Assembly: GCA_019636655.1 (NCBI GenBank)
Contig: JAHBXB010000002.1
Coordinates: forward strand, 942,537 to 1,006,536
Direction of reading: 5' to 3'
DNA length: 64,000 nucleotides
Source of the DNA: Phycisphaeraceae bacterium
GTDB taxonomy: Bacteria > Planctomycetota > Phycisphaerae > Phycisphaerales > UBA1924
Position 1 is the first letter of the stretch. Each line of letters starts with the position of its first letter. The position numbers and the translations under genes are program-made. The notes beneath the pieces were generated by a model. It did no database searches, had not been told where the DNA came from, and was given only the letters and a program-made list of their open reading frames with translations. Of the stretch, positions 20,752 to 26,285 are shown piece by piece.

Positions 20752-20807
20752 CCGGTGCGTTCATGGACGTGGCAGGGGCGCACAGGGGAGGCGAAGGAGC
20801 GCGCGGT

Positions 20808-21920
20808 ATGGGCGACGCGATCAGCGAAGGGGTCGGTTCCGGCGGGGGCTCGAACGGGTCCGGCGCGGTCGCGCAGGTCCGCGGCGTGCACGACCGGCTC
20901 AAGGAGCAGATCCACAAGGTCATCGTCGGTCAGGACGAGGTCGTCGACCAGATCCTGCTGGCGATGTTCTGCCGCGGCCACACGCTGGTCGAAGGCGTGC
21001 CGGGGCTCGCCAAGACGCTGCTGATCTCGACGATCGCCCGGACGCTGAGCCTGGGCTTCAGCCGCATCCAGTTCACGCCGGACCTGATGCCCAGCGACAT
21101 CACGGGCACCGAGGTGATCGAAGAGGACAAGAGCACGGGCACGCGCGAACTTCGGTTCGTGAAGGGCCCTATCTTCGCGAACGTCATCCTCGCCGACGAG
21201 ATCAACCGCACGCCCCCCAAGACGCAGGCGGCGCTGCTGGAGGCGATGCAGGAGCGGCAGGTGACGGTGGGCGGGACCCAGCACAAGCTCCCGGAGCCGT
21301 TCTTCGTGCTCGCGACGCAGAACCCCATCGAGCAGGAGGGGACCTACCCGCTGCCCGAGGCCCAGTTGGACCGGTTCATGTTCCAGGTCCGCATCGGCTA
21401 CCCCAACGCCGTCGAGGAGGCGGAGATCGTGCGGCGCTCGACCAGCGGCGCCCGCGGCACGCCGGAGGCGGTCCTCAACGCCCAGGACATCGCTCGGACG
21501 CAGGAACTGGTCCGCGCGACGCCCGTGCCGGACTACGTGATCCGTTACGCCCTCCGGCTGGTCCGCGCCACCAGGGTGGGCGAGCCGATGGAGGGCGGGG
21601 TCGCCCGTCCCAAGCTGGTCAAGGACTACGTGGGCTGGGGCGCCGGGCCGCGCGCCAGCGAGTACCTCGTGCTCGCGGCGAAGGCCAGGGCCCTGCTGGA
21701 ATCCAGCCGCAACGGACAATCCGGTCCGGGTGTTGTGGTGACCCCGGAGCACGTGCAGTCGATCGCGAAGCCCGTGCTGAGGCACCGCGTCCTGACCAAC
21801 TTCAATGCCGAGGCGGACCAGGTGACGACCGACATGATCATCGATGCGATGATCAAGGAAGTGCCGATCGAGGGCGCCACTGCGGAGGAGAAGCGGCAGA
21901 TGGGGGCGGTGATGCGGTGA
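20808..21920 (+). CDS. MoxR-family AAA+ ATPase
   Basis: 370 residues with Walker A GVPGLAKT at 63-70, Walker B VILADEINR near 126-134, the sensor segment FFVLATQNPIEQEGTYPLPEAQLDRF and the MoxR lid at the C-terminus. MoxR ATPases act as chaperones that help mature metal- or cofactor-containing complexes, usually with a von Willebrand-type partner, which is not adjacent here. ATG 20808 is preceded by AAGGAG at a 9-base spacing; the alternative ATG 20763 would add 15 residues. It stands behind the terminator of the sigma block and 95 bases ahead of the metal ATPase. Confidence 0.88.
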   Translation: MGDAISEGVGSGGGSNGSGAVAQVRGVHDRLKEQIHKVIVGQDEVVDQILLAMFCRGHTLVEGVPGLAKTLLISTIARTLSLGFSRIQFTPDLMPSDITGTEVIEEDKSTGTRELRFVKGPIFANVILADEINRTPPKTQAALLEAMQERQVTVGGTQHKLPEPFFVLATQNPIEQEGTYPLPEAQLDRFMFQVRIGYPNAVEEAEIVRRSTSGARGTPEAVLNAQDIARTQELVRATPVPDYVIRYALRLVRATRVGEPMEGGVARPKLVKDYVGWGAGPRASEYLVLAAKARALLESSRNGQSGPGVVVTPEHVQSIAKPVLRHRVLTNFNAEADQVTTDMIIDAMIKEVPIEGATAEEKRQMGAVMR

Positions 21921-21962: not shown

Positions 21963-21979
21963 ATGAGACATTGTCTCAT
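21963..21979. promoter_or_regulatory. Perfect inverted repeat, candidate operator of the metal ATPase gene
   Basis: ATGAGACA-T-TGTCTCAT, 8 + 1 + 8 without a mismatch, centred about 45 bases before ATG 22016. A TANNNT element at 22004-22009 would place the transcript start at the ATG, so the repeat would sit just upstream of or over the -35 region. Rrf2, encoded immediately after the ATPase, is the natural candidate to bind it. Confidence 0.55.
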
Positions 21980-22003
21980 TCGATCAAGCATTCTGTAGGG
22001 GTG

Positions 22004-22009
22004 TAGCGT
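22004..22009 (+). promoter_or_regulatory. -10-like TAGCGT in front of the P1B-4 ATPase gene
   Basis: TAGCGT ends 6 bases before ATG 22016. Confidence 0.4.
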
Positions 22010-22015
22010 TCGATC

Positions 22016-24124
22016 ATGACCGACACCGCCCTGGCGACGGCGGACGACGAACCGGCGGGCCTCGCCGGCCGGCTCTTCTCACCCCGGGGAGAGTTGGTGT
22101 CGTCCCTCGCCGCCGGGGCATTGCTCCTGACCTCGTGGCTGCTCAAGGCGGTCGGCGCGGGCGAGATCGCGGCCGTGCTGGTCTGGGCGAGCCTCGCGAT
22201 CGGCATGGTCCACGGGGTCCGGGCGGCGTGGGATTCCCTCCGCGGCGGGGCGTTCGACATCGACTGCCTGATGGTCATCGGCGCCGCGCTGGCCGCGTAC
22301 ATCGGTGCTCCCGCCGAGGGGGCGCTGCTGCTGTTCCTGTTCGTGCTCGCGGGCGCCCTTGAGGGGCTCGCGATGGCCCGCACCAAGCGGGCGGTCGAGG
22401 CCCTTCACAAGCTCATGCCGACCGAGGCGGTGCGTTGGAGCGATTCCACGAACCAGTGGGAGAGCGCTCCCCCCGAGGCCCTTGCCGCGGGCGACCGGAT
22501 CAAGATCATGCCGGGCGAACTGGTGCCCGCCGACGCCTCGGTGCTCGCCGGTGATTCCGCGATGGACCAGGCGAGCCTTACGGGGGAGAGCATGCCGCGG
22601 AACGTCGGTGTGGGCGACGACCTGTACGCCGGCACCGTCAACGTGGGGAACTCGCTCGAAGCGCGGGTGACTCGCCCGGCGAGCGAGTCGAGCCTCCAGC
22701 GCGTGCTCAACCTCGTGCTCCAGGCCCAGCAGCAGCGGGAGCCCGTGCAGCGGCTGATCGACCGCGTGAGCCAGCCGTACGCCATCGGCGTGATGGTCGC
22801 GAGCGCGGCGGTGCTGCTGGTGTGGTGGCAGGTGTTCAAGGTGCCGCTGGTCGTCCAGGAATCAGGAGGGGTCGGTGGCTCGCTGTACACCGCGATTACG
22901 CTGCTGGTGGTGATGTCGCCGTGCGCGGTGATCATCGCAACACCGACGGCGACCCTCGCGGCGATCGCGCGGGCCGCCCGGGGCGGCGTGCTGTTCAAGG
23001 GCGGACAGGCGATCGAGCGGCTGGCGCGGATGCGGGCGCTGGCGATGGACAAGACCGGTACGCTGACCGTCGGGCACGCCGAGGTGCACGAAATGAAGGG
23101 CATCGGGTGGTCCGACACCGAGCGACTGCTGGCCGTCGCGGCGGGGCTGGAGCAGGACTCGACGCACCCGATCGCCGCGGCGATCCGGGCGGCCGCTGCC
23201 GCGCGCGGAATCAAGCCGATGCGAGCGACGCGGACGACCTTCGAGCCGGGGCGCGGCGTCAGCGGGGTCTTCGACGGTCACCCGGCGCGATTGGGGACGA
23301 TCGAGCACACGCAGAAACTCGTGCCCGTCTGCCTCCGGGCGAAGCTGAAGGAGTTCAGCGAGGCCGCGAGGGGCCGCGGCCACATCGCGACGATCATCGC
23401 CTGGAACGGCCAGGCCGGGGTCGTGGTCATCCACGATGAGCTCAGGCCGGGGGCGGACCAGGTCGTGGGTCGGCTGCACGCAATGGGGATCGGGCCGGTG
23501 GTCATGCTCACCGGCGACAACGCACGGACCGCGGAGAACCTGGCGAAGGCGGTCGGTATCGATCGCTGGCGGGCCGAACTGATGCCCGACGGAAAGGTCG
23601 AGCAGATCAGGGCCCTCAAGGCCGAGGTACGCTCGGTCGGATCGGGCCGCGGCGGGGTTGGGCTCGTCGGCGACGGGGTCAACGACGCTCCCGCCCTCGC
23701 GGCCGCGGATGTGTCGCTGGCGGTGGGGTCGATCGGGTCCGATGCGGCGCTCGAGTCCGCGGACGTCGTGCTGATGGGGGACGACCTGGCAGCCCTGCCG
23801 TGGGCAGTCGACATCGCCCGCCGGGCCCGCCGGACCATTGCCGCAAACCTGACGTTCGCCCTCGTCGCGATCTGCGCGATGGCGGTTGCTACTCTGGTTG
23901 GGTCCAGACTAGGGTTTGCCCTACCCCTGTGGATGGGTGTAATCGGGCACGAGGGCGGGACGCTGCTGGTGGTGGCGAACTCGCTCCTGCTCCTTACGGT
24001 TCCGAAGATGATCCCGTCAGAAAAGCGACCAGTCAGCCTCAATTCTCATGCCGTCGATCCGGCCCATGGGGGCGAAGCCACGCCGGCCGGAGGGGCGCTG
24101 CAACCGGTTACGTCGCTAAAGTAG
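22016..24124 (+). CDS. P1B-4-type metal-exporting ATPase
   Basis: 702 residues with the P-type ATPase core: TGES near 189-192, DKTGTLT with phosphorylated Asp345, TGDN and GDGVNDAP. The ion-binding motifs are SPC at 301-303 in the sixth hydrophobic segment and HEGGT at 645-649 near the C-terminus. SPC plus HEG(G/S)T defines the P1B-4 class, whose members export Co(II) or Fe(II) from the cytoplasm (CoaT, CtpD and PfeT types), rather than the CPC type for copper or zinc. As is usual for this class there is no N-terminal heavy-metal-binding domain. The C-terminal tail of about 40 residues is hydrophilic and of no known family. Rrf2 follows after 40 bases. Confidence 0.9.
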   Translation: MTDTALATADDEPAGLAGRLFSPRGELVSSLAAGALLLTSWLLKAVGAGEIAAVLVWASLAIGMVHGVRAAWDSLRGGAFDIDCLMVIGAALAAYIGAPAEGALLLFLFVLAGALEGLAMARTKRAVEALHKLMPTEAVRWSDSTNQWESAPPEALAAGDRIKIMPGELVPADASVLAGDSAMDQASLTGESMPRNVGVGDDLYAGTVNVGNSLEARVTRPASESSLQRVLNLVLQAQQQREPVQRLIDRVSQPYAIGVMVASAAVLLVWWQVFKVPLVVQESGGVGGSLYTAITLLVVMSPCAVIIATPTATLAAIARAARGGVLFKGGQAIERLARMRALAMDKTGTLTVGHAEVHEMKGIGWSDTERLLAVAAGLEQDSTHPIAAAIRAAAAARGIKPMRATRTTFEPGRGVSGVFDGHPARLGTIEHTQKLVPVCLRAKLKEFSEAARGRGHIATIIAWNGQAGVVVIHDELRPGADQVVGRLHAMGIGPVVMLTGDNARTAENLAKAVGIDRWRAELMPDGKVEQIRALKAEVRSVGSGRGGVGLVGDGVNDAPALAAADVSLAVGSIGSDAALESADVVLMGDDLAALPWAVDIARRARRTIAANLTFALVAICAMAVATLVGSRLGFALPLWMGVIGHEGGTLLVVANSLLLLTVPKMIPSEKRPVSLNSHAVDPAHGGEATPAGGALQPVTSLK

Positions 24125-24164
24125 TCCGCCGTCCTTGCCGGCCACCTGTTTAGGGAGTCCATGA

Positions 24165-24629
24165 ATGTTCTCTCAGACGACCGAGTACGCCCTTCGGGCG
24201 ATGGCGTGGCTGGCCCTGAGTCCCGGGCAGTTGGTCTCCACCACGGCCCTTGCCCAGGCGACCAAGGTTCCCGAGCACTACCTCGCCAAGGTGCTCCAGC
24301 AGTTGGCCGCGGCGGGGCTGGTGCGGGGGCGCCGGGGCGTCGGGGGTGGGTATCAACTGTCGCGCCCGGCGTCGCAGATCACGATGACCGAGGTCGTGCG
24401 CTCCACCGGCCGCATCGAGCGGATCACGGTGTGCCCGCTCGGGCTCTCCTCGCACGGGACGAACCTGTGCCCGCTGCACCGCATGCTCGACTCGGTCGCG
24501 AAGGACGCCCTCGCGATGCTCGACGGCAAGACTCTCGCCGACCTGATCGACCAGCCGGGGATGAGCACGCCGCTCTGCGATGAGAGAGTGCGACCGGTGA
24601 CCCTCAGCCTCTCCGCGAACGGGGCCTGA
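24165..24629 (+). CDS. Rrf2-family transcriptional regulator
   Basis: 154 residues: an N-terminal winged helix (QTTEYALRAMAWLA, VSTTALAQATKVPEHYLAKV) and the Gly-rich wing VRGRRGVGGGYQLSRP, both typical of Rrf2. In IscR and NsrR an Fe-S cluster is held by three cysteines at positions 92, 98 and 104 with a His or Asp; aligned here these are Cys90, Ser96 and Cys102, with His105 in the IscR His position and Glu7 at the N-terminus. The central Cys is therefore missing, and His97 next to it is a possible replacement. AGGGAG just before the ATG is the ribosome site. It is downstream of the P1B-4 ATPase, so it may sense iron or another metal. Confidence 0.88.
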   Translation: MFSQTTEYALRAMAWLALSPGQLVSTTALAQATKVPEHYLAKVLQQLAAAGLVRGRRGVGGGYQLSRPASQITMTEVVRSTGRIERITVCPLGLSSHGTNLCPLHRMLDSVAKDALAMLDGKTLADLIDQPGMSTPLCDERVRPVTLSLSANGA

Positions 24630-24646
24630 GAAGGCTCCGTGCGGGC

Positions 24647-24652
24647 TAGCAT
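24647..24652 (+). promoter_or_regulatory. -10-like TAGCAT in front of lysS
   Basis: TAGCAT ends 7 bases before ATG 24660, favouring it over the GTG at 24639. Confidence 0.4.
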
Positions 24653-24659
24653 CGTCGCG

Positions 24660-26285
24660 ATGTCATCCACACCGGAATCAGGGCCCGCCGCCGCGGGGAT
24701 CCACGAGCTCGAGCAGCAGCGCCGGAAGAACCGGGACGAAGCCGCTCGCCTTGGGTTCCCGCCCTACGGGAAGCGCACCGACGGTCTCGACACCCTTGCG
24801 GCGGCCAAGGGCAAGTACGACGAAGCAGCGGACAAGGCGTTCGCCGCCGCGGGCAAGGAACCCCCGGCCGGATTCACGGATCCGCGTCCGGCCGCGGCGA
24901 TCGCCGGGCGGATCGTGCTCCGGCGCGACGGCGGCAAGCTGCTCTGGCTGACCCTGCGGGACGAGACCGGCGACATGCAGGCGGCGGTGAGCGAGCGGGA
25001 CTGCGACACGCGATCCTTCGCCCTGGCCAAGTCGCTGGACCTGGGGGACGTGATCGTGGTGCGGGGTCGGATGATGAAGACGCGGACCGGCGAGATCACC
25101 TGCTGGGCCGGGCTGGGCGCGGCGGGGCAGGAGCCGGCGGTCGAACTCGCGAGCAAGTGCCTCACGCCCCCGCCGGAGAAGCACGCCGGGCTCGCGGATG
25201 TGGAGCTGCGGTACCGGCGACGGTACGTGGACATGTGGGCGACGCCCGAGACCGTGCGGGTGTTCCAGATGCGGTCACGCATCGTCTCGCGGATCCGGAG
25301 GCACCTGGACGAGCGGGGGTACCTCGAGGTCGAGACGCCGATGCTCCAGCAACTGGCCGGCGGCGCCGCGGCGCGGCCGTTCAAGACGCACATGAACGCG
25401 CTGGACATCGAGCTGTTCCTGCGGATCGCGCCGGAGCTGTACCTCAAGCGGCTGCTCGTGGGCGGCATGCCCAGGGTGTACGAGATCAACCGGAACTTCC
25501 GCAACGAGGGGGTGGACAAGAGCCACAACCCCGAGTTCACGATGCTCGAGGTGTACCACGCGTTCGGCGATGTCGAGACGATGATGGAGCTGATCGAGGG
25601 CACCATCCGCTCCTGCGCGATGATGGTGAAGATGGCGAGCGAGGACGCGTCGGGCGCCGTCGGCGACGAGGACGCGGTCCCCAGCGACCTTGTGCTCCCC
25701 TTCGGCGACGTGATGATTGACTACGGCAAGCCGTTTCTTCGGGTCGCCTACTCGGATCTGTTCCAACGGGCACTTGGATTCCCGATCTCCGATGGCGCCC
25801 GGGCTCGCGAAGAGGCCAGGAAGCGGGGGCTCAAGGTCACCGGCGAAAAGGGCGAGCCGCTCGCGGATGTCCTGGTCGTCAACGAGTTGTTCGAGGAAGT
25901 CGCCGAGCCGACCCTCGACATCACCCGCCCGACGTTCATCACGCGGTACCCGTCCGCGATCAGCCCGCTCACCCGGCCCAACCCGGAGCACCCGGAGCTC
26001 GCGGACCGGTCGGACCTGTTCATCGGCCACATGGAGGTGGCCCCCCTCTACACCGAGTTGAACGACCCCGACGTGCAAGCGGCGAAGTTCCGCGAGCAGC
26101 TGGCCGGGTTGGACGACGAGGAGAGCACCTTCCGCACGTTCGATCAGGACTTCATCGATGCGCTGAAGGTGGGGATGCCGCCGGCGGGCGGGCTTGGGCT
26201 GGGCATCGACCGGCTGGTGATGCTGCTGACCAACCAGCGGACGATCCGCGATGTCGTGCTCTTCCCGATGATGCGGCCGGAATAG
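24660..26285 (+). CDS. lysS: Lysine-tRNA ligase, class II
   Basis: Charges tRNA-Lys. The 541-residue protein has an N-terminal OB-fold anticodon-binding domain ([21 protein letters not shown] near 81-101), the class II motif 1 region ([10 protein letters not shown] near 221-230), motif 2 ([20 protein letters not shown] near 274-293) and motif 3 ([15 protein letters not shown] near 511-525). [19 protein letters not shown] is typical of LysRS rather than AspRS or AsnRS. The start ATG 24660 is chosen over GTG 24639 because a -10-like hexamer lies between them. Confidence 0.95.

Follow-up and report, generated by a model that had tools for sequence, protein, structure and literature searches.

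Which protein reads the palindrome that precedes a metal pump gene in a Phycisphaeraceae genome, and does the regulator encoded directly behind the pump take part? Within the 64,000-nucleotide stretch of DNA that was analyzed (the window), an inverted repeat, a gene for a P-type ATPase, and a gene for an Rrf2-family regulator follow one another at 21963-24629. A sequence-only reading of this locus had proposed a self-contained iron or cobalt efflux module, in which the Rrf2 protein, in its Fe-S or apo form, controls the pump through the palindrome.

The pump gene (22016..24124, plus strand) encodes a 702-aa P1B-4-type metal-exporting ATPase that probably transports Fe(II) and possibly also Co(II). 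Its product scores 527 bits with TIGR01525 (cut-off 346) and is also above the cut-off of TIGR01512, and a Pfam search found no N-terminal HMA domain. The SPC motif of transmembrane helix 4 (22916..22924, plus strand) is present in 70/70 relatives, and the HEGGT motif of transmembrane helix 6 (TM6; 23948..23962, plus strand) occurs as HEGGT or HEGST in every one of the 70 relatives examined whose sequence covers this region. The ATPase thus combines SPC in TM4, HEG[G/S]T in TM6, and a heavy-metal P-type core with the lack of an N-terminal HMA domain, which bears out the assignment to the P1B-4 exporters that had been made from the two motifs. The best structure match is PDB 7qbz (343 bits), a P1B-4-type protein labeled as a cadmium-translocating P-type ATPase; it shares the SPC and TM6 motifs with the ATPase, but metal specificity cannot be transferred between the two by sequence alone.

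Upstream of this gene, ATGAGACATTGTCTCAT at 21963-21979 is an exact, perfect 8-1-8 inverted repeat, as had been read, although it ends 36 bases before the ATPase ATG (22016) and not the roughly 45 bases first given. It lies 43 bases past the stop codon of the preceding moxR gene. Taken alone, the palindrome is not above chance, as the window holds four perfect 8-1-8 palindromes compared with 2.8 expected from shuffles; a 9-3-9 palindrome is also present, in the end of moxR. The case for the reality of the 8-1-8 repeat comes instead from comparison, since in relatives its motif is found upstream of the ATPase gene as well as of iron genes, which upholds the earlier view of the palindrome as a real operator.

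In palindromic EM of the regions upstream of orthologous ATPases, the top motif was nTGAGACnnnGTCTCAn, in genomes where the ATPase is linked to an Rrf2 gene and in genomes where it is not. A degenerate pattern, TGAGAYNNNRTCTCA, was found at 108 sites in 89 genomes, compared with 8 sites for the reversed pattern. Because sites upstream of the ATPase had suggested this pattern, the independent evidence lies in the kind of gene found beside it genome-wide and not in the pattern match itself. The genes beside ∼70 of the 108 sites were read, with representatives checked against Pfam. Across sites, the box has the consensus TTGAGACTnAGTCTCAA.

The box precedes feoAB at nine loci, including one in the genome under study (L181), where it departs from the pattern at one position and is separated from feoA by 39 bases. 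It also precedes genes for haem oxygenase (five directly and two via an upstream gene), cysteine desulfurase (three), FecCD-type iron transporter operons (two), and a ferredoxin (L145), and it occurs in a divergent pair of CtaA-like and multihaem cytochrome genes at 11 loci. Two genes were rejected as members of this candidate regulon, a catalase (L163) and a second ferredoxin (in L146), as in each case the box sits past the stop codon. When a matrix derived from the iron genes is used, the palindrome at 21963-21979 scores 19.5 bits. As suggested earlier, iron is the likely substrate of the pump.

The neighbors of the box also include two secreted families without a Pfam match. One, which carries the sequence LDRWMYPFN, follows the box in the genome under study (L164:426-1487, C2 near 49146) and at L151, L252, L262, L282, and L283; a haem oxygenase gene lies downstream in two loci, making this family a candidate iron-related protein. 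The other has an INPFTE-type start (L184:771-1439 in the genome under study, L272, L278, and L284), and an iron-type box lies at or within ∼70 bases of that start. At L159, L153, L160, L257, L266, L267, L270, L273, L274, and L277, the box is flanked by a COX15/CtaA-like gene on one side and an alternative complex III-like multihaem cytochrome cluster on the other, a position that suggests iron control of respiratory haem proteins.

The 15-bp core of the box is a 7-1-7 palindrome with a TGA-N9-TCA layout. The Fur box, TGATAATnATTATCA, has this same layout, and, as expected of a Fur box, the 7-1-7 palindrome found here is common to iron-acquisition genes, with sites upstream of feoAB and of genes for haem oxygenase, Fe-S functions, and siderophore transport. 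The two differ in their half-sites, which have GAC/GTC here where the Fur box has TAA/TTA. Fur is a candidate binder. At the 19 Fur-gene regions examined there was no good box and hence no signature of autoregulation.

A further possibility is a zinc-type (Zur) identity for the ATPase box, with zinc or cobalt as the exported metal. P1B-4 pumps can export Co(II) as well as further divalent metals, and the genome under study encodes a Zur-like Fur protein (L288, C1:376390; an assignment made by eye, the highest NCBIfam score being with a PerR model and below cut-off). However, the regions upstream of znuA-like genes contain another palindrome, the 7-2-7 motif TGAGAATnnATTCTCA, which was seen at L341 (C3 of the genome under study), L344, L352, L354, and L360. 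This motif, probably a zinc-type box, has another spacing and another base 6 than the iron-type box, and in both features the ATPase box agrees with the box of the iron genes. Because znuA-like genes have this different motif, we assign the ATPase box to the iron type and consider zinc control to be most improbable.

We next turn to the relation between the box and the Rrf2 gene. For the scan of ATPase upstream regions, a matrix was built solely from sites that do not precede an ATPase, and a threshold of 8 bits was applied. Boxes at or above this threshold were found in 18 of 70 distinct upstream regions (0.27 expected); the remaining 52 have no box at 8 bits. Linkage to Rrf2 makes little difference to these counts (11/40 linked versus 7/30 unlinked ATPases), and the number of boxes per genome is similar whether the Rrf2 subfamily is present (1.38) or absent (1.46). 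On the ATPase tree, the box changes ∼10 times and the Rrf2 pairing ∼10 times; dependence of one on the other was not seen among the few independent pairs that the tree contains. The inner T/A pair of the motif occurs in 10/34 half-sites of ATPase boxes versus 35/40 half-sites of iron-gene boxes (p = 3e-7, with half-sites not fully independent). Its rarity may reflect a lower affinity of the ATPase boxes, their recognition by another Fur paralogue (PerR, for example), or a looser constraint.

Candidate readers of the box were compared by their presence in the genomes that carry it. FUR proteins were found in 90/90 genomes searched. The genome under study has four, of which L287 (C4:52245) is nearest to Fur structures and L289 (C2:611667) is nearest to PerR. 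In the C-terminal half of L287, the most Fur-like of the set, the customary CxxC zinc motifs are absent. DtxR was rejected as the reader, as it is missing from three box-bearing genomes (G124, G025, and G116). For Rrf2, G113 and G124 had no match at all and the matches of G050 and G121 stayed below cut-off, yet all four genomes carry boxes (three in G113, one in G124, and four in G050), and the single box of G124 precedes feoAB (L150). The box is thus not confined to genomes with an Rrf2 gene, as would be expected of an Rrf2 operator, and this comparison indicates that Rrf2 is not the general reader of the box, unless its gene is missing from several assemblies that are 91-95% complete. The list of targets alone does not exclude an Rrf2 protein, since RirA, a member of this family, controls iron genes in rhizobia. 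From the architecture of the box, the universal presence of Fur-family proteins, and the exclusion of Rrf2 and DtxR, we infer that the box is bound by a member of the Fur family.

The Rrf2 gene itself (24165..24629, plus strand) encodes a 154-aa protein that is above cut-off for PF02082 (109 bits) and TIGR00738 (116 bits). Its open reading frame begins 40 bases past the ATPase stop codon, the spacing that had been noted before, and lysS, for lysine-tRNA ligase (24639..26285, plus strand; NF001756, 522 bits), is directly next. On the other side of the pair lies a gene for a moxR-type AAA ATPase (20763..21920, plus strand; PF07726, 217 bits), and synteny marks both flanking genes as conserved neighbors in the order sigma factor, anti-sigma-like, PDZ protein, moxR, [ATPase], rrf2, lysS. 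The Rrf2 relatives with names come mostly from Phycisphaerales metagenome assemblies. This type of rrf2-lysS neighborhood was also seen in records titled Longimicrobiales, Cyanobacteria, and Leptolyngbya (L401, L404, and L431), which are probably mislabeled or misbinned.

The pairing of ATPase and Rrf2 genes is itself conserved, with adjacency at 40 distinct loci, some of them in different neighborhoods. At the moxR-lysS locus, rrf2 is found without the ATPase in many genomes, and the ATPase is found without rrf2 in three (G074, G034, and G002). At 14 ATPase-rrf2 loci, neither moxR nor lysS is within reach, which makes some functional tie between the two genes plausible.

An alignment of 50 relatives shows that the Rrf2 subfamily retains E7, C90, H97, C102, H105, and C138, an unusual set of putative ligands. 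The Rrf2 protein was compared with IscR and NsrR sequences, and the alignment was cross-checked against PDB chains. IscR uses Cys92, Cys98, Cys104, and His107 as ligands, and NsrR uses three Cys and Asp8 (PMC5411485). In the protein studied here, which has the fold and family of IscR, NsrR, RsrR, and RirA, C90, C102, and H105 match Cys92, Cys104, and His107 of IscR, and the acidic E7 corresponds to Asp8 of NsrR. Unlike in these proteins, H97 replaces the middle Cys and C138 is an additional conserved residue. With two loop Cys and a His in place of three Cys, the protein falls outside the IscR and NsrR equivalogs, whose NCBIfam models score far below cut-off. The ligand set would suit a putative Fe-S cluster.

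To seek a site for the Rrf2 protein, palindromic EM was applied to four sets of upstream regions: those of Rrf2 genes with and without a linked ATPase, those of Rrf2-linked ATPases that have no Fur box, and those of lysS. No convincing second motif was found in any of these sets. Early EM matches proved to be moxR codons, and some scores barely over those of shuffles are suggestive of coding bias. More distant Rrf2 relatives (L417, L418, L420, L424, L439, and L440) have A/T-rich palindromes such as GATAAGAATATATTCTTATC and GATAAAAGGACCTTTTTATC upstream, which are possible sites of true Rrf2 autoregulation.

These results bear on two roles for the Rrf2 protein. The first is the one originally proposed, in which it binds the palindrome and controls the pump without a further regulator. 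Adjacency at 40 distinct loci, 14 of them with neither moxR nor lysS nearby, the retained cluster-type ligands, and the precedent of RirA, an Rrf2 protein able to run an iron regulon, all speak for this wiring. The occurrence of the box does not depend on the Rrf2 gene, however: it is carried by Rrf2-free genomes, precedes unlinked ATPases equally often, has the architecture of a Fur box, and is tied to feoAB and haem oxygenase. A similar sequence before an Rrf2 gene was seen only in G058. The self-contained module is not supported, and we regard it as very improbable. The other role is that of a partner, with a Fur-family protein on the box and Rrf2 at a second site of the same promoter or operon. 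The persistence of the pair when the moxR/lysS neighborhood changes, its spread over the ATPase tree, and intergenic gaps short enough to permit an operon are consistent with such dual control. There is, however, no second conserved motif before linked ATPases or Rrf2 genes, and each gene is found at the locus without the other, so dual control is possible but doubtful. Co-control of a P1B-4 iron exporter by a Fur-family protein and an Rrf2 protein with the specific mixed ligands Glu7, Cys90, His97, Cys102, His105, and Cys138 is a tentative and rather unlikely proposal.

Very probably, this P1B-4 pump exports Fe(II), its most likely metal, under an iron regulon, with the palindrome serving as a Fur-family box read by Fur or a PerR-like paralogue. 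Iron-loaded Fur, or the PerR-like paralogue, would bind the box at 21963-21979 and switch the pump according to the iron or peroxide state of the cell, as for pfeT of Bacillus subtilis, so that the pump would adjust Fe(II) export as a member of the iron regulon of the cell; Rrf2 would add at most a second layer of control. A scan for sigma-70 promoters recognized no sigma-70-like promoter. PfeT, the P1B-4 pump of B. subtilis, is activated by Fur and repressed by PerR (PMC9993123), and Fur and/or PerR are the regulators of the known iron-exporting P1B-4 pumps according to a review (PMC7762939), the kind of control that the sequence-only reading had called usual for such pumps. Like PfeT and FrvA of Listeria monocytogenes, which are under Fur and PerR, the ATPase has P1B-4 motifs and an upstream Fur-type 7-1-7 box, and it shares a regulon with iron uptake and haem genes. 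It differs in having TGAGACTnAGTCTCA and not TGATAATnATTATCA as its box and in adjoining an Rrf2 gene. The likely reading is that a Fur-family protein controls an efflux pump for Fe(II) that resembles PfeT and FrvA. Both the metal and the direction of the control are taken from pfeT and frvA; the box, the genes that accompany it, the type of pump, and the independence from Rrf2 are what the analysis shows.

Fur-type boxes upstream of P1B-4 iron exporters are of an already known kind. The new elements are the sequence of the planctomycete box, its candidate regulon, and the neighboring Rrf2 subfamily; a search of literature drawn mostly from outside the subscription journals found neither a paper on a planctomycete Fur box nor a report of an iron-efflux ATPase controlled by Rrf2. 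The proposed wiring is corrected to a probable Fur-type box in place of an Rrf2 operator, and Phycisphaerales-type planctomycetes gain an apparent iron-regulon box with a list of candidate members, distinct from the box that is probably of the zinc type. Control of P1B-4 iron exporters by Fur-type regulation would thus reach a further phylum. The Rrf2 subfamily with its unusual ligands poses a testable question: if co-control is true, Fe-S or redox status and free iron would both be read at one planctomycete export operon.
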